DNA of 64,000 bases from Xenococcaceae cyanobacterium MO_167.B27. GTDB taxonomy: Bacteria; Cyanobacteriota; Cyanobacteriia; Cyanobacteriales; Xenococcaceae. The notes under the pieces were generated by a model that worked only from the letters and a program-made list of their open reading frames with translations, ran no database searches and was not told the DNA's origin. The stretch is from the NCBI GenBank assembly GCA_030065935.1, contig JASJCP010000005.1, positions 1 through 64,000 of the forward strand. The letters are read 5' to 3'. The stretch's first letter is position 1. Each line of letters opens with the position of its first letter. A program made the position numbers and the translations under genes. This document shows, piece after piece, positions 1 through 44,545 of this stretch.

Positions 1-200
1 ATTCCAAATTGTCTAGGTGCGTTGCTCGTACCAACTTACAGCAATTTATAGCTAGATTTCTGGTACTTGCAAGTATTATACAACGGCTGAAGTCCTTGCT
101 ATATAAAGATTTGGTGTTGAGAATATCTCTATTTTGTATACTTACACCTTGCCCTCGCGCTCGATCCTCTCCCAGAAGGTCGAGGGAATTCCCGCTCCGT
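1..200 (+). ncRNA. Structured RNA-like repeat, copy 1 (5' end may lie outside the window)
   Basis: Shares blocks with 22442-22640 (ATTCCAAATT.TCTAGGTGCGTTGCT, TTACAGCAATTT.TAGCTAGATTT, TTATACAACGGCT, GGGAATTCCCGCTC); stem GTACCA (28-33)/TGGTAC (61-66) covaries with copy 2. Confidence 0.5.
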
Positions 201-294
201 TCTTTAAGCTTACCTACTTACACCCCATAATCTACTACGACTTCTGCTTAAGTTTCAAGTAAATTAATTTTATGGTTTTAACAAGTCTTTCCCT

Positions 295-15912: not shown

Positions 15913-16299
15913 TTGACGAGATTAGGGAGCAGGAGAAGGACAATGGATTGGAGAAATAGAAATAAGGGACAACACCGTCATCGACATGGGGAAGGCAATC
16001 GTCTGGCTGAAACCGAAAACCCCCGTCAAAAGCGTTCCATTATGACACTGGCAAAGGCGCGGGTAGGCGATCGCCTGTGGATTTCTGGCTATGAAAGTAA
16101 AGATGGGATTAATCGGCTGGTGGGGATGGGGTTAGCACCAGGTATGGCGATTGATGTACTTAAAAATATCGCAGGGAACTTGGTTGTTGGGGTGGGAGAG
16201 ACTCGGATTGGTATCGATGGAGGGATGGCAAAACGAATTCTAGTATCCGATCAACCCTTTGATTATTTAGTCGAAGTGGAAGACTTACCAAAAACCTAG
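15913..16299 (+). CDS. feoA: FeoA-domain protein 2 with His/Arg-rich N-terminus
   Basis: ESKDGINRLVGMGLAPGMAIDVLKNIAGNLVVGVGETRIGI. Confidence 0.85.
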   Translation: MTRLGSRRRTMDWRNRNKGQHRHRHGEGNRLAETENPRQKRSIMTLAKARVGDRLWISGYESKDGINRLVGMGLAPGMAIDVLKNIAGNLVVGVGETRIGIDGGMAKRILVSDQPFDYLVEVEDLPKT

Positions 16300-16466
16300 T
16301 CAAAGTTATCTATTTGGACAGATAAGTCGAGTTGTAGTACTATTGTAATCTATTATTACCAAAGGTTAAAGTTATTACCTTGGGGTAAGTGGCAAGCCCC
16401 GAAGCTCCTAAAATTGAAGAGTAGCTGGCATTAGCTACAAGTATTGTTGTCACATCAATCAACAAG

Positions 16467-21777: not shown

Positions 21778-22209
21778 TTGATGGTAGTTGGTACTTCAGA
21801 AGCAGCGAAAATCTTAAATATCTCTTCTGCTAGACTTAGAGTTCTTCTTATTGCAGGGAGAGTAGAAGGGGCTTACAAGACAGGAAAGATGTGGTTGATT
21901 CCTTTATTCAAGGGCAAACCCATAATTGAGAAAGGGAAAAGAGGTCCTGCTCCTCGTTGGCGTAATCCTAGAAAGCCAGCTAAAACAATCATTCACGTTA
22001 ATACACACAAAATTCAAGACAATAAAAAGCACCAAAAAAAACAGGCAGTAATTACGGTGAAAAAAGGAAATACTAATGTGTATGGACACCAGGTAGAAAT
22101 TCCAGGAGGATGTCGCGTTGTGTATCGTCCTGATAATCCTATTTGTGGTGGTGCTAGGGTCTGGATTGAAACTCTTTTTGATGTTCGAGTTACTTGTTTA
22201 GACCTGTGA
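21778..22209 (+). CDS. HTH (excisionase-like) protein with basic middle region
   Basis: GTSEAAKILNISSARLRVLLIAGRVEGAYKTGKMWLIP. Confidence 0.6.
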   Translation: MMVVGTSEAAKILNISSARLRVLLIAGRVEGAYKTGKMWLIPLFKGKPIIEKGKRGPAPRWRNPRKPAKTIIHVNTHKIQDNKKHQKKQAVITVKKGNTNVYGHQVEIPGGCRVVYRPDNPICGGARVWIETLFDVRVTCLDL

Positions 22210-22441
22210 CTTCTCCCGCAGGCTAAACCCATGCGGGCTTTATCTCTCGCGAGATAAACCTTACTGCCCTACGCCACTTATCTAGAACTATGACAGCTAT
22301 CACAATTCCCCGACAGTACGACAATTTGAAAGTCAATTTCTTTCCCCGAATGTCCTTCGGTAAAGCGCGTATTAGAAAAAATACTCATACATCTAATTAC
22401 GCTTGGAATTTTACCGATGAGACTCTCTCATCGAACCCCAT

Positions 22442-22640
22442 ATTCCAAATTTTCTAGGTGCGTTGCTTTGTACGAAGTTACAGCAATTTTTAGCTAGATT
22501 TTACGTACAAAATTATTATACAACGGCTCAAACCCTTGTTATATGAAGATTCTGTATCCAAACTGTAAAACTATGACCAATAACTTATCGCGCTCGCAAT
22601 CACATCCCTGCCCCCTGAACGGGGCGGGAATTCCCGCTCG
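22442..22640 (+). ncRNA. Structured RNA-like repeat, copy 2
   Basis: Stem TTTGTACG (22467-22474)/CGTACAAA (22504-22511); terminal stem 22607-22628; conserved end GGGAATTCCCGCTC; homologous to 1-200. Confidence 0.55.
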
Positions 22641-22656
22641 CATTTTAAGATGTTTT

Positions 22657-27475: not shown

Positions 27476-28585
27476 ATGCTTAATCTAATTTACAACTACA
27501 AGTTACATCCAACAGATAAACAGATAGAAATAATTGAACATAATCTCAATGTTTGTAAATCTGTTTGGAATCATGCTCTATACAAAAGAAAACTTTGGTA
27601 TAACAGCCGTAGTTGTGATATTAATAAGTGTTCGATAATCTCTGAATATGTTGTTGAACCATTTGAATATCCGTCTTACCATACTCAATCTTCTGAACTT
27701 ACTCAGGCTAAGAAAACTAACCCTTACTTGAAATCTGGTAACGCTCAAGCTATGCAACAAACATTACGAAAGTTGGATAGAGCATTCAATGATATGACTC
27801 GTAAAGGAATGGGATTTCCACGTTACAAAAAGAAGATGAAATCTTTTAATCTTCTGAGTAACAAGTTTGAGATTAATGGTAATTACCTCAAGATGCCTCT
27901 ACTTAAAAATATTAAGTTGAGAAAATCTAGAGATATTCGGTCAGGTTTCAAAATTAAACAAGTTCAAATCATTAAGAAAGCATCTGGTTATTATGCTAAT
28001 GTAACGATTCAACTTGATGTTAATGTACCTTTACCTTTACCTCATGGTCATGCTGTAGGTATAGATGTAGGTATTAAAAGTATGCTATCTACTTCTGATG
28101 GAAATGTAATCGCTCGACCCTCGTTCTTAGACAAAGCACTGCGTAAGATTAAATTACTACAAAGAAAGCTGAAAAAGAAACGTATTGGTTCTTCTAAATG
28201 GAACAAACTACAGAGAAAAATAGCCCTATTACATGAAGCAGTAGCTAATAGAAGAAAGGACTATCATTTCAAACTCTCCCATCAATTATGTAATGGAGTA
28301 GGAATGATATTTGTAGAAGATATAAACTTTACATCTTGGAGTAAAGGTATGTTCTGCAAACAATCCGTTGATATGGGGCTAGGTCAATTCTTCAATATAC
28401 TAGAGTATGTATGCTCAGTAACGGATACATATTTCTCTAAAGTAGATAAGAATTTCACATCTCAAATATGTCCTAATTGTGGCACTCATACAGGTAAGAA
28501 AGAACTCAATATAAGAGTACATAAGTGTAATGAGTGCGGATATGAGCAAGATAGAGATGTAGCGGAGGCACGAAGTTGTACGTAA
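27476..28585 (+). CDS. tnpB: TnpB (IS200/IS605 family), C-terminal frameshift
   Basis: GIDVGIKSMLS, VEDINF, zinc ribbon CPNCGTHTGKK...CNECGYEQDRDVAEA; the expected tail VVRNRGLTAVGAPVVKLPS lies in another frame. Confidence 0.88.
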   Translation: MLNLIYNYKLHPTDKQIEIIEHNLNVCKSVWNHALYKRKLWYNSRSCDINKCSIISEYVVEPFEYPSYHTQSSELTQAKKTNPYLKSGNAQAMQQTLRKLDRAFNDMTRKGMGFPRYKKKMKSFNLLSNKFEINGNYLKMPLLKNIKLRKSRDIRSGFKIKQVQIIKKASGYYANVTIQLDVNVPLPLPHGHAVGIDVGIKSMLSTSDGNVIARPSFLDKALRKIKLLQRKLKKKRIGSSKWNKLQRKIALLHEAVANRRKDYHFKLSHQLCNGVGMIFVEDINFTSWSKGMFCKQSVDMGLGQFFNILEYVCSVTDTYFSKVDKNFTSQICPNCGTHTGKKELNIRVHKCNECGYEQDRDVAEARSCT

Positions 28586-28589
28586 TAGA

Positions 28590-28720
28590 GGATTAACTGC
28601 GGTCGGTGCGCCCGTGGTGAAATTGCCCAGTAATGGCGTTCTGGCGGGGACTATTGCAGTCTAGCTAAGAGTCTATATGGGAATCCCTCGTCTCCGACGA
28701 TGGGAGGTTCAATTACCCCA
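28590..28720 (+). mobile_element. Right end of the tnpB element
   Basis: GGGAATCCCTCGTCTCCGACGATGGGAGGTTCAA hairpin typical of IS200/IS605 right ends. Confidence 0.6.
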
Positions 28721-28763
28721 AGCACATTTTTCTTTAACCTATAGAGTAAAAGTAAATTATTCC

Positions 28764-32247: not shown

Positions 32248-32660
32248 CTATAATGGTCGGTTCTGTTGTTCAATATACTGTTTAATTATTGATAATGGCG
32301 CACCGACCCAAGAGCCAGCAAAATAGCTAGGCGACCATAAACCACCTTTCCAATAATATCGAGGCTCATTTTGGATGTTGTTTTCGCTTCGGTGCCTAGA
32401 GGATACACCTTTTAAACTGTTAACGCGCCTTGGAAATAGATACTTTTGGTGGATAGTTAAGTAATAAATGGACATGGTCAGTTTCACCGTTCATTTCCAT
32501 TAATTCTGTTTCAAAATCTTTGCAGATATCCCTAAAAATAATTTCCATATCTTTAAGTATTACATCAGTAAAAACTTTTTTCCGATACTTAGTCACAAAA
32601 ACCAAGTGAACCTGAAGTTTAAACACGCAATGCCTGCCAGTACGAATATCAGTTGACTTC
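32248..32660 (-). pseudogene. tnpA: IS200-type Y1 transposase TnpA, frameshifted
   Basis: TDIRTGRHCVFKLQVHLVFVTKYRKKVFT...DHVHLLLNYPPKVSISK then frame change to VNSLKGVSSR...WSPSYFAGSWVGAPLSIIKQYIEQQ. Confidence 0.85.
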
Positions 32661-32784: not shown

Positions 32785-33990
32785 ATGATTATAAGGAAGG
32801 CATATAAATTTAGACTCAAGACCAATCAGACTATAGCCCGAAAACTGTCTCAATTTGCGGGTTGCTCACGACTGGTTTGGAATAAAGGTTTGGCATTTCA
32901 AAAAGAAAGATTGAACGCTAAACAGTCTTGTTTGTCCTATGCTGGATTAACCAAAGAATTAACTGGATGGAAAAAAGAAGAAGGCTTGTTTTTTCTTAAA
33001 CAAGTTCACTCACAAGCTTTGCAGCAATCCTTAAAAAATCTATCACAAGCATTAAAAGAAGCTTTTGATAAAACTAATCCTAAACAATTTCCTAAATTCA
33101 AAAAGAAAGGGCAAGGTGACTCATTTCGTTATCCACAAGGATTTAAAGTAGATAATGATAATGGACGAGTATTTCTGCCCAAAATAGGATGGGTTAGGTA
33201 CAACAAAAGTCAAGATGTTGTAGGTGAAGCTAAAAATGTAACCGTCTCTAAAAAAGGACAACACTGGTTTGTATCTATTCAAGTTGAAATAGATGTAGAA
33301 ATACCCAAGCATCCTTCGAGTTCGATTATTGGAGGCGATTTGGGAGTAATCAGGTTTTTAACTCTATCAAATGAAAAATATTATGAACCATTAAATATAT
33401 TTAAGAAACTGAAAACCAAGCTAGCTAAACTACAAAAAAAATTAGCTAAAAAAGAAAAGTTTTCTAATAAATGGAAAAAGTTAAAGTCTAAGATAACTAA
33501 ACTACATATCCGTATTGCTAATATTCGTAACGATTATCTTCACAAGATTTCAAGTGAACTGAGCAAAAACCACGCCATAGTAATTCTTGAAGACTTAAAG
33601 ATAGTCAATATGAGCAAGTCAGCCAAAGGAACAGTAGAAAATCCAGGTAAAAATGTTAAACAAAAATCTGGTTTAAATCGGGCAATTCTTGACCAAGGTT
33701 GGGGAGAGTTGATCCGTCAACTAGAATATAAGCTTGCTTGGAATGGTGGTCAACTAGTTCAAGTTAATCCTAGAAATACATCAAGAAAATGTCCAAAGTG
33801 CAACTATATATCGGCAGAAAACAGAAAAACTCAAGCTGTTTTTAAATGTCAAAACAGTAGTTGCAACTATACTGCAAATGCAGATAAAGTAGCAAGTTTA
33901 AATATCACAGAGGCGGGACTCGCCTTGATAGCATCTGGAGAAGACCCGTTGGGGTTTTCGATGAATGGTGAACCCACCGACGGAATTTAA
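32785..33990 (+). CDS. tnpB: TnpB (IS200/IS605 family)
   Basis: IGGDLGVIRFLTLS, VILEDLKIVNMS, zinc ribbon CPKCNYIS...CQNSSCNYTANADKVASLNI. Confidence 0.9.
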   Translation: MIIRKAYKFRLKTNQTIARKLSQFAGCSRLVWNKGLAFQKERLNAKQSCLSYAGLTKELTGWKKEEGLFFLKQVHSQALQQSLKNLSQALKEAFDKTNPKQFPKFKKKGQGDSFRYPQGFKVDNDNGRVFLPKIGWVRYNKSQDVVGEAKNVTVSKKGQHWFVSIQVEIDVEIPKHPSSSIIGGDLGVIRFLTLSNEKYYEPLNIFKKLKTKLAKLQKKLAKKEKFSNKWKKLKSKITKLHIRIANIRNDYLHKISSELSKNHAIVILEDLKIVNMSKSAKGTVENPGKNVKQKSGLNRAILDQGWGELIRQLEYKLAWNGGQLVQVNPRNTSRKCPKCNYISAENRKTQAVFKCQNSSCNYTANADKVASLNITEAGLALIASGEDPLGFSMNGEPTDGI

Positions 33991-37277: not shown

Positions 37278-38585
37278 ATGATTAAAAAAACCAACTATGT
37301 TTTAGTTGTAGATGCCAAGAAAAAACCATTAACCCCATGTAAGCCATCGGTAGCTAAAAAGTTACTTAAAGGGGGGAAAGCTGCGGTTTATCGGAGGTTT
37401 CCTTTTACTATTATTCTCAAAAAGCGTTGCAGCGCGGTCTTGGGGGAAACCCCCACTCGCTGTTGCGCCAAGAAAGAATGTATTCCAAACAAGCAAAAAC
37501 TAGAACTAAAAATCGATCCAGGCTCTCAAACTACGGGTTTAACTTTAGTTCTGAATGATGCTCTTATTTGGTGCGGAGAACTCAATCATCGTGGTTCATT
37601 AATCAAAAAGAAACTAGAGTCTCGTCGTCAATCTCGTCGCTTGAGACGAAGTAGATTGAGATATAGAAAACCAAGATTTTTAAATCGCAAACGACCTGAA
37701 GGATGGTTAGCCCCTAGTTTAGAGCATAGAGTTTTAACTACTATGACCTGGGTGAAACGACTAATGAATTTTGCTTCTATTAGCTCTATTGCTATGGAAT
37801 TGGTGAGGTTCGATCCCCAAAAACTAGAAAACCCTGAAATATCGGGGATTGAATATCAACAAGGGGAATTACTGGGCTATGAAGTTAGAGAGTATCTATT
37901 AGAAAAATGGGGCAGAAAATGTACTTATTGCTCTAAAGAAAATGTTCCTTTGCAACTAGAGCATATTGTTCCAAAAGCTAGAAATGGTTCAAATAGGCTC
38001 AGTAATTTATGTCTGGCTTGTGAAAAATGCAATCAGAAAAAAGGGACTAAATCTATCGAGGAATTTCTAGCCAAAAAACCTAGTTGGCTTAAGTCTATTT
38101 TGGTTCAAGCTAAAAAGCCATTACGCGATGCTGCTGCGGTTAATGCTACCAGGTGGAAGTTATTCAACACTTTAAAAGAGACTGGCAAGCCAGTTTCTAC
38201 GGGAACGGGGGGACAAACTAAATTTAATCGTTGTCGGTTTGGTTTGGAGAAAACCCATTTTTATGATGCAGCTTGTGTTGGACAGATAGATAAGTTAGAA
38301 ATTCTTGCCAACCAGCCTTTGATTATTACCTGCAAGGGACATGGAGGAAGGCAAAAAGCAGGGTTGAATAAATATGGATATCCCATTAGATACAACCCCC
38401 TTAAGCCAATTAAAGGATGGCAGTCAGGAGACTTAGCGGTAGACCAAGAGGGTAACTTCGGACGAGTTAACCCTCGTTCCAAATCTAATAGCTTTAACTT
38501 TACTGTCTTTGGACAAAAAGCAAAAAGCATTCATGTCAACAAATTAAGACGAGTTCATCAAAAGGATGGATATACTTATGGATAA
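37278..38585 (+). CDS. iscB: IscB RuvC-HNH endonuclease with in-frame palindrome insertion
   Basis: LKIDPGSQTTGL RuvC-I, Arg-rich bridge helix, HNH CTYCSKENVPLQLEHIVPKARNGSNRLSNLCLACEKCNQKKG, RuvC-III THFYDAACVG. Confidence 0.93.
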   Translation: MIKKTNYVLVVDAKKKPLTPCKPSVAKKLLKGGKAAVYRRFPFTIILKKRCSAVLGETPTRCCAKKECIPNKQKLELKIDPGSQTTGLTLVLNDALIWCGELNHRGSLIKKKLESRRQSRRLRRSRLRYRKPRFLNRKRPEGWLAPSLEHRVLTTMTWVKRLMNFASISSIAMELVRFDPQKLENPEISGIEYQQGELLGYEVREYLLEKWGRKCTYCSKENVPLQLEHIVPKARNGSNRLSNLCLACEKCNQKKGTKSIEEFLAKKPSWLKSILVQAKKPLRDAAAVNATRWKLFNTLKETGKPVSTGTGGQTKFNRCRFGLEKTHFYDAACVGQIDKLEILANQPLIITCKGHGGRQKAGLNKYGYPIRYNPLKPIKGWQSGDLAVDQEGNFGRVNPRSKSNSFNFTVFGQKAKSIHVNKLRRVHQKDGYTYG

Positions 38586-39023: not shown

Positions 39024-39160
39024 GACTTACCAAAAACCTAATCAAAGTTATCCACTTTGACTGGTAAGTCAAGTTTAAGTCCAATAGGACTACGTTATTG
39101 GGAAGTGTTAAAGTTCTTACTTTGGGGTACGTGGCAAGCTCCAAACTCTAAAAGTAGATG
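39024..39160 (+). repeat. Diverged copy of feoA2 3' end plus downstream structured segment
   Basis: gacttaccaaaaacctaatcaaagttat...actttggggtacgtggcaagctccaaact versus 16283-16415. Confidence 0.75.
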
Positions 39161-39268
39161 ATTAAACAGGAGAGCGGGTTTTTAAAATACCAGTGTCATT
39201 TACAAAGTACCGACCAATAACATGAACGATGCCAACTTTACTCAATTTAATTGAAGACGGACTGAAAT

Positions 39269-40546
39269 ATGTCAAATTTTGTATTTGTAATTGATAGGGA
39301 CAAAACGCGCCTTAAACCAACTCATCCGGCTAAGGCTCGAAAACTGCTTGATGCAGGGTTAGCTGCGGTTTATCGTTCTTATCCGTTCACAATCATTCTT
39401 AGAAGGAAAGTAAACAATGTTAATCCCAGCAAACTCCAGCTAAAAATCGATCCAGGGGCTAGAACTACAGGAATAAGCTTGCTTTACAACAATCTTGTTA
39501 TTTGGGCAGCAGAACTAGCCCATCGAGGAGAACAGATTAAACTCAGGCTTCTTGAGAGAAGGGCTATTCGTCGTTCTCGTCGTAATCGCAAAACTAGATA
39601 TAGAAAACCCAGATTTTTGAATCGCAAGCGTCCAGATGGTTGGCTACCTCCCAGTTTAGAACATCGGGTTTTAACTACGATGACCTGGGTGAAACGATTA
39701 ATCAAATTGTGTCCTATTGGGTCTATAGCAATTGAGTTAGTCAAGTTTGACCTTCAAAAAATGCAGAATCCAGAAATCTCTGGCACTGAATATCAACAAG
39801 GAACTTTATATCAGTACGAAGTGAGAGAATATTTACTAGAGAAATTTAATCGTACTTGTGCTTACTGTGGTGCTGAGAACGTGCCATTAGAAGTAGAACA
39901 TATTGTTCCAAAATCTAAAGGTGGCTCAAACCGAGTCTCAAATTTGTGTATTGCTTGTGTAACTTGTAATCAAGCTAAATCTAACCAAGATATTAAAGAC
40001 TTTCTAGCTGACAGACTTAGTAGACTCAAGGGGATTTTAGCTCAAGCCAAAGCACCCCTATTAGATGCAGCAGCAGTTAATTCTACTCGCTGGAAGTTGT
40101 TTAACAAACTCAAAGAAACTGGATTACCTGTAACTACTGGTACAGGAGGACAAACTAAATTCAATCGAACCCAACAGGGTTTAGCTAAAACTCATTGGCT
40201 AGATGCTGCTTGTGTGGGAAAAACACCACAATTAAAGGTTTTAACCAGTCAGCCTTTGCTAATCACTTGTAAAGGTCACTGCCACCGTCAAGTTATCCAA
40301 ATGGATAAGTATGGTTTTCCCCGAAAAGGATATAAGCCAAAACAAAAAGTTCCCGGTTGGAATACTGGCGATATTGTCAGCGTAATAGCTGGAAAGAACG
40401 CAGGACTGAGAAATGTAAGGATTAAGACCGTCAGGTGTAAAGGAAATTTTGATGTCAGAAGACCAGATAAAACTGTAGCTTCTGTGTCAAAAAATCATAT
40501 TATTCCTATTCATCGCAAGGATGGATATAGTTATACATTTGCTTAA
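39269..40546 (+). CDS. iscB: IscB RuvC-HNH endonuclease, second copy
   Basis: LKIDPGARTTGISLL, HNH CAYCGAENVPLEVEHIVPKSKGGSNRVSNLCIACVTCNQAK, THWLDAACVG. Confidence 0.93.
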   Translation: MSNFVFVIDRDKTRLKPTHPAKARKLLDAGLAAVYRSYPFTIILRRKVNNVNPSKLQLKIDPGARTTGISLLYNNLVIWAAELAHRGEQIKLRLLERRAIRRSRRNRKTRYRKPRFLNRKRPDGWLPPSLEHRVLTTMTWVKRLIKLCPIGSIAIELVKFDLQKMQNPEISGTEYQQGTLYQYEVREYLLEKFNRTCAYCGAENVPLEVEHIVPKSKGGSNRVSNLCIACVTCNQAKSNQDIKDFLADRLSRLKGILAQAKAPLLDAAAVNSTRWKLFNKLKETGLPVTTGTGGQTKFNRTQQGLAKTHWLDAACVGKTPQLKVLTSQPLLITCKGHCHRQVIQMDKYGFPRKGYKPKQKVPGWNTGDIVSVIAGKNAGLRNVRIKTVRCKGNFDVRRPDKTVASVSKNHIIPIHRKDGYSYTFA

Positions 40547-44457: not shown

Positions 44458-44524
44458 CACGAGTGTCTGGATGAAAGCAGGGGCAGGATTTATTGGGATA
44501 CATTTTCGACACATAATCTTTATA

Positions 44525-44545
44525 GAACCCATTTGGGTTCTTTTT
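44525..44545 (+). terminator. Rho-independent terminator
   Basis: GAACCC-ATTT-GGGTTC-TTTTT. Confidence 0.85.

Follow-up and report, generated by a model that had tools for sequence, protein, structure and literature searches.

The window, by which we mean the whole 64,000-nucleotide stretch of Xenococcaceae cyanobacterium MO_167.B27 analysed here, opens at the first base of contig C262 and inside a repeat that recurs some 22 kb downstream. The original prediction took the two copies for a structured RNA, possibly connected with IS200/IS605-type elements. This raises the question of what unit the repeat belongs to, what its paired segments serve, and how it persists in the genome.

Extent and copies of the element

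The sequence blocks claimed to be common to the two copies are real, with 83% identity over 112 aligned columns. The 7.0-Mb genome contains 35 matches to positions 1-200 and 51 matches to positions 22205-22650, numbers that place the repeat far from chance. A profile built from ten copies spans about 440 nt and is matched over its whole length by the second copy (439 nt), which, like the other complete copies, is a tnpB-less element of the IS200/IS605 type, as had been suspected.

22206-22644, minus strand: copy 2, complete element between TTAA and GTCAC (boundaries from the copy alignment and the empty site of a sister copy)
1-203, minus strand: copy 1, left half only, cut by the contig start (profile positions 8-205; contig C144 ends at the same point)

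Contig C144 terminates in the repeat of copy 1 with 98% identity over 200 nt. Since the start of C262 and the end of C144 lie at one point of nearly identical repeats, the truncation of copy 1 is an effect of the assembly, which was broken by a recently duplicated repeat. Right halves that begin at a contig edge, in C58 and C139, are probably the missing other sides. Along the sense strand a full element presents TTTAA or TTAA, a left-end hairpin, a promoter, a leader RNA of about 140 nt, a scaffold of about 155 nt and the right end GTCAC. Its copies adjoin unrelated genes in both orientations. A further fragment of the family's left end and promoter lies at 44464-44527 (profile E 9e-5), and in G009 (contig C248, locus L160) a copy is interrupted by two large insertions, one of which starts exactly after profile position 203.

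Ends, target site and mobility

Similarity among the aligned copies drops sharply at both boundaries, before TTTAA or TTAA at the left end and after GTCAC at the right end. TTAA is found at 33 of 39 left-end junctions against a background of 13%, and TTTAA at 22 of 39 against 4%.

22645-22648, minus strand: TTAA in the left-end flank of copy 2, target motif and putative TAM (TTTAA in most copies)
204-207, minus strand: TTAA target motif of copy 1 (copy alignment)
22605-22628, minus strand: left-end hairpin of copy 2, CCTGCCCC/GGGGCGGG after GGGAATTCCC (sequence)
152-198, minus strand: left-end hairpin region of copy 1 with GGGAATTCCC (sequence, copy alignment)
22214-22238, minus strand: right-end hairpin, identical with omega-RNA stem 4 (helix 9 of the covariation analysis; copy alignment)

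Subterminal palindromes thus described occur at both ends, without terminal inverted repeats, and the left-end hairpin is presumed to be the recognition site of a Y1 transposase. The terminal stem of the original prediction, CCCTCG at 152-157 with CGAGGG at 181-186, exists, but it is a hairpin of the left end at the DNA level, which the promoter follows and the predicted RNA does not include. The ending said to be common to both copies, GGGAATTCCCGCTC, was found at 185-198 and 22626-22639. The same left end precedes tnpB genes at four loci (L214, L225, L226 and L231).

Insertion can be followed at a sister copy on contig C163, whose flanks, joined in silico, correspond to one uninterrupted stretch in two relatives (G003 and G007). 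The empty site reads CTAAATTTAA-GCAATTGCTTGC in G003, and TTTAA stands likewise in G007. At this junction TTTAA passes directly into the right flank (AATTGCTTGCA...) and the target is not duplicated, which is the mode of insertion of IS200/IS605 elements. For the site of copy 2 (22655) no clean empty site was found; relatives with the same downstream gene carry unrelated DNA or other elements upstream. The element holds no transposase gene, and Y1 TnpA genes lie elsewhere in the genome, which has 43 Y1 transposase matches, some of them fragments, including at least 10 full-length open frames. One Y1 transposase match within the window, at 32263-32629, is split over two frames and adjoins a divergently oriented second tnpB at 32788-33939.

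A scaffold shared with the 3' ends of tnpB genes

The last part of the element resembles the guide-RNA scaffold of TnpB nucleases.

22206-22363, minus strand: TnpB-type omega-RNA scaffold ending at GTCAC (models R1 and R2; homology to tnpB 3' ends)
22344-22361, minus strand: scaffold stem 1 with loop GGAC (covarying in 5 of 5 pairs)
22186-22205, minus strand: right flank, predicted guide segment with predicted start at 22205 (from its position relative to GTCAC and from TnpB biology)

In three relatives (G013, G017 and G022) the last 160 nt or so of the element correspond to the 3'-terminal part of tnpB together with its right end: the same DNA there codes ...QEIGSQVVLSGNLVLDKW and then forms the right end. 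The tnpB sequence, ...GAAATTGGCTCTCAAGTCGTACTGTCGGGGAACTTGGTTCTAGATAAGTGGC..., can be aligned with that of the solo element, ...GAAATTGACTTTCAAATTGTCGTACTGTCGGGGAATTGTGATAGCTGTCATAGTTCTAGATAAGTGGC..., from end to end. The scaffold abuts GTCAC, and from there the flank diverges.

Covariance model R1, built from 22 copies of which one is tnpB-linked, has 77 matches at E<=7e-4 in the genome. Among the matches listed, 26 of the 77 follow a TnpB Zn-ribbon match of the same orientation at a distance of 17-91 nt and 51 are without such a partner, while the control, with the partner on the wrong side or the wrong strand, yields a single pairing. Model R2, made only from copies with no tnpB found alongside, likewise gives 77 matches (E<=0.001), among which most of the tnpB-linked places found with R1 appear again. 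The search of cyanobacterial genomes that the original prediction had proposed finds R1 matches in 37 of 293 genomes of the phylum, with many best matches behind a TnpB of the same family. This family carries the Pfam domains OrfB_IS605 and TNB and matches the RNA-guided DNA endonuclease TnpB (PDB 8bf8/8ex9, E 5e-26). Among viral contigs there was one scaffold match, adjoining a TnpB C-terminal fragment, and no match to TnpB protein patterns.

Sequence comparison gives good support to a common origin of the scaffold and the tnpB 3' end, and with it to assignment to the TnpB omega-RNA type. The proposed omega-RNA reading accordingly fits the family, whose complete copies end in such a scaffold, but not copy 1 itself, which comprises the left end, the promoter and the start of the leader and stops short of the scaffold. 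The suspicion that the repeat might be the coding end of a gene has a similarly divided outcome: frame analysis found no ORF conserved across the copies, although the scaffold does descend from the coding 3' end of tnpB.

In the omega-RNA of ISDra2, nucleotides -5 to -3 form a pseudoknot with stem 1, and there are additional stems as well as a UUUA tetraloop (PMC10097598). The scaffold described here resembles it in having a stem 1 and a UUUA-type loop in the last stem, and the element likewise has a target motif upstream of its left end. A corresponding pseudoknot is possible and would join the GGAC loop to GUC at 22210-22208 (-5 to -3); this pairing is available in 97% of cells, in an alignment where it is nearly invariant and two of the three pairs never vary, so that covariation does not prove it.

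Promoter, leader and covarying fold

In this genome the space between left end and scaffold is taken by tnpB in the tnpB-linked loci, and by a promoter and a leader in the solo copies.

22512-22556, minus strand: conserved predicted promoter module, with -10 TATAAT at 22520-22515
75-80, minus strand: -10 hexamer TATAAT of copy 1 (sequence)
22364-22511, minus strand: leader RNA of solo elements, with the hairpin 22511-22467 first and nested hairpins after it (covariation, model R3)
28-66, minus strand: leader hairpin GTACCA/TGGTAC of copy 1 (sequence; helix 1)

The -10 hexamer, TA[TCA][AG]AT, is kept in 64 of 67 distinct copies, and the module gives a sigma-70-like match that by itself does not rise above shuffles. 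A leader profile finds 51 matches, some of them counted twice, in the loci retrieved for solo copies; in 34 tnpB-linked loci it has no match below E 0.6. The leader covariance model R3 has 22 matches in the genome, at least 19 of which precede a scaffold match by no more than about 180 nt, most of them abutting it (coordinate lists compared by eye). Matches to R3 are strong (E<1e-15) in 9 of the 27 genomes of the family and weak elsewhere; a genome of another family (G204, contig C68) shows one weak leader-scaffold pair, abutting and in the right order. Two distant cyanobacteria, G084 and G146, have multi-copy weak matches (11 and 6 copies), which may represent a related leader or chance. A second type of leader (GGTAAAAACC...TTGACCCAGGATTGGGAACTACCCAACCTAGATG) stands before the same scaffold at L113, L104, L106, L108, L110 and L175, of which L106 is cut by a contig end before the scaffold is reached.

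The sense strand is the minus strand, because the alignment read in that direction contains 154 G-U cells against 8 C-A cells in the consensus structure, and its consensus energy is -59.6 kcal/mol against -32.6 kcal/mol for the other strand. Single-sequence folding of copy 2 does not decide the strand, with -98.7 kcal/mol (z -4.5) for minus and -79.6 kcal/mol (z -5.3) for plus. Sixteen full-length copies share 61 pairs in 11 helices, and 36 of these pairs display two-sided changes, which supports the functional-RNA reading for the family. Paired cells amount to 94.5%, against 80.3% in shuffled and about 42% in slid alignments, the structure being derived from the same alignment and so favouring it over the slid versions; none of 500 shuffles, a control that ignores relatedness, reaches any of five covariation measures.

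The paired segments from which the original prediction started are present as GTACCA at 28-33 with TGGTAC at 61-66, and as TTTGTACG at 22467-22474 with CGTACAAA at 22504-22511. This stem is helix 1, and its pairing is indeed kept through base changes in the 16 copies: the three innermost pairs are 100% paired, each with two-sided changes. Homologues that break the stems had been named as the counter-evidence to look for, and in the homologues the stems are kept. The leader contributes the covarying helices 1, 4 and 5. Covariation of the scaffold could partly predate the loss of tnpB, an objection from which only the leader covariation is free. As the leader covaries and is not seen with tnpB, selection has probably acted on the RNA after tnpB was lost.

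These observations bear on the simplest account of the element, that of a passive miniature (MITE or PATE) in which only the ends matter, for mobilisation by TnpA, and the scaffold is a fading remnant of the tnpB 3' end. PATEs are known as IS605 derivatives with only ends (PMC3119063), and the ends are the best-kept boundaries here. Internal helices far from the ends nevertheless covary strongly and hold many G-U pairs. The absence of leader and promoter from the tnpB-linked loci, moreover, marks the element as more than an end-only deletion product, and we regard the passive account as unlikely. As an identification, a non-autonomous element of the IS200/IS605 type with a standalone TnpB omega-RNA under its own promoter is well supported.

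Possible supply of TnpB in trans and a proposed mechanism

The element keeps a guide RNA and a promoter but has lost tnpB, and therefore probably borrows TnpB from other sources in the cell. The genome encodes at least five TnpBs (L214, L216, L218, L225 and L231) that are full-length, have the RuvC D/E/D residues and are accompanied by this type of scaffold, so that a partner in trans is available. At least 150 TnpB Zn-ribbon matches, many of them truncated, make for an unusually heavy load. TnpB favours the retention of its element by cutting element-free loci (PMC10278001), and this role, together with the available partners, argues for a use in trans for retention. We assign a probability of about 0.7 to the reading in which a non-autonomous IS200/IS605-type transposon has had its tnpB replaced by a promoter and a structured leader, fused to a TnpB-type scaffold, and uses TnpB in trans for its retention.

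Transcription would start just 3' of TATAAT, run through leader and scaffold, and cross the right end GTCAC, copying about 16-20 nt of the host flank as a guide. TnpB from autonomous elements of the same genome would bind the solo RNA in trans and cut copies of the locus free of the element, in which TTTAA is followed by the guide sequence. Cutting would favour repair from the occupied copy, by which the element would be retained, and Y1 TnpA, likewise supplied in trans, would move it. We infer expression, loading into TnpB in trans, guided cutting, a benefit to the element and the use of those TnpA genes from the features above. The guide is the flank by definition, and its match to the empty site follows from transposition and is no proof of use. 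The leader might also make the RNA unsuitable for TnpB.

A decoy or regulator would work in the opposite sense: the solo RNA would withhold TnpB or, through its leader, make it a non-cutting regulator, and lower TnpB activity. The very high number of TnpB matches would suit such a role, segments of TnpB mRNA can inhibit TnpB cleavage (PMC10278001), and the element has an extra leader domain. A decoy would, however, need neither the guide position at the right end nor the TTTAA-type junction, both of which are kept, and we consider it somewhat less probable still than the passive miniature.

Neighbouring genes, other bodies and other RNA families

Copy 1 lies about 90 nt upstream of a PgpH-type gene (7TMR-HD, 295-2730). 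Its placement in front of that gene, as originally described, is right in position, but the element faces away from it and does not form its leader. That the repeat is a cis-regulatory leader or riboswitch for neighbours such as this gene, a reading for which that proximity is the argument, is hardly credible given the RNA's direction, the diversity of neighbours and orientations noted above, the lack of an Rfam match and the sister copy, an insertion whose site is empty in relatives. We searched Rfam with the whole window at the gathering threshold and with positions 1-300 at E<=5, and found no match to the repeat, only HEARO elsewhere. Equally improbable is a degenerate protein-coding repeat with a conserved IIQRLKPLLYKDSVSKL-like frame on the plus strand, which we rejected: the core does read as such a peptide in several copies, but the frames are not conserved upstream or across copies, stops vary between copies, the core is the minus-strand promoter, and base pairs covary.

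The window also contains a HEARO RNA (RF02033, the IscB omega-RNA) at 39024-39241 with an intact IscB gene (RRXRR and HNH) at 39269-40543, a second stretch similar to IscB at 37290-38579 and a remnant resembling HEARO at 16282-16403. HEARO differs from the element in having its guide at the 5' end and its scaffold before the gene. An origin from HEARO or IscB was rejected, as the RF02033 model does not match the repeat and the one core found near IscB (L036/L107) looks like an adjacent insertion. At L107 (1859-1991) a solo left end and promoter is aimed at an IscB about 290 nt downstream (from about 2300 onwards) and may drive an IscB omega-RNA.

Several other bodies occur behind the same left end and promoter. 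The window contains, as part of an autonomous-type element that is related to the present one but distinct from it, the gene

27476-28585, plus strand: tnpB (Pfam OrfB_IS605 and TNB)

behind which a weak R1 match at 28597-28756 (22.5 bits) represents a distant relative of the scaffold. The body of solo copy L116 (contig C237) matches the 3' end of this very tnpB (E 1e-18), and those of L115 and L131 resemble other TnpBs (E about 1e-6); further bodies match only weakly. Guide-only derivatives may thus exist for several TnpB families. At L029/L103, L031, L033 and L117 the same left end and promoter are joined to a conserved body of another kind (TGGGTTCTACTGAAAAGTCTCCCAGTTGCAGTCCGTTCAGTAGG...), which may be the guide-only counterpart of a further TnpB family.

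Relation to known systems and significance

With the omega-RNAs (reRNAs) of TnpB, such as that of ISDra2, the element has in common a scaffold derived from the tnpB 3' end and right end, and a guide position, here predicted, 3' of the right end; unlike them, it lacks tnpB, has its own promoter and adds a covarying leader of about 140 nt. The palindrome-associated transposable elements (PATEs) of Haloquadratum, which derive from IS605 and consist of little but ends, are similarly short and transposase-free, with near-terminal palindromes, IS605-type ends and no target duplication (PMC3119063). In contrast to PATEs, the present element keeps a complete omega-RNA scaffold and has gained a promoter and a leader. 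TnpB omega-RNA elements that lack tnpB but carry a promoter did not turn up in a literature search, an absence that is weak evidence. Standalone, trans-acting omega-RNAs were reportedly described for IscB by Altae-Tran and colleagues in 2021. Those, too, are omega-RNA loci without a nuclease gene, but they belong to another nuclease family with the guide on the other side, whereas here the RNA is part of a multi-copy transposable unit with a dedicated promoter.

More tentatively, and at somewhat less than even odds, cyanobacteria may host a whole class of selfish stand-alone guide-RNA elements, in which one left end and promoter is joined to leaders and scaffolds of several TnpB families, parasitising TnpB for retention and TnpA for movement; the covarying leader would then be a novel functional domain of the RNA, acquired once tnpB had been lost. 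Such elements may account for part of the short structured repeats of cyanobacteria. They yield a set of covarying TnpB scaffolds, together with a conserved leader domain that may alter the behaviour of TnpB, and offer a natural multi-copy test of TnpB working in trans. Should the solo RNAs be in use, TnpB would be a public good on which guide-only parasites draw, a step comparable to the separation of nuclease and guide loci in CRISPR systems.
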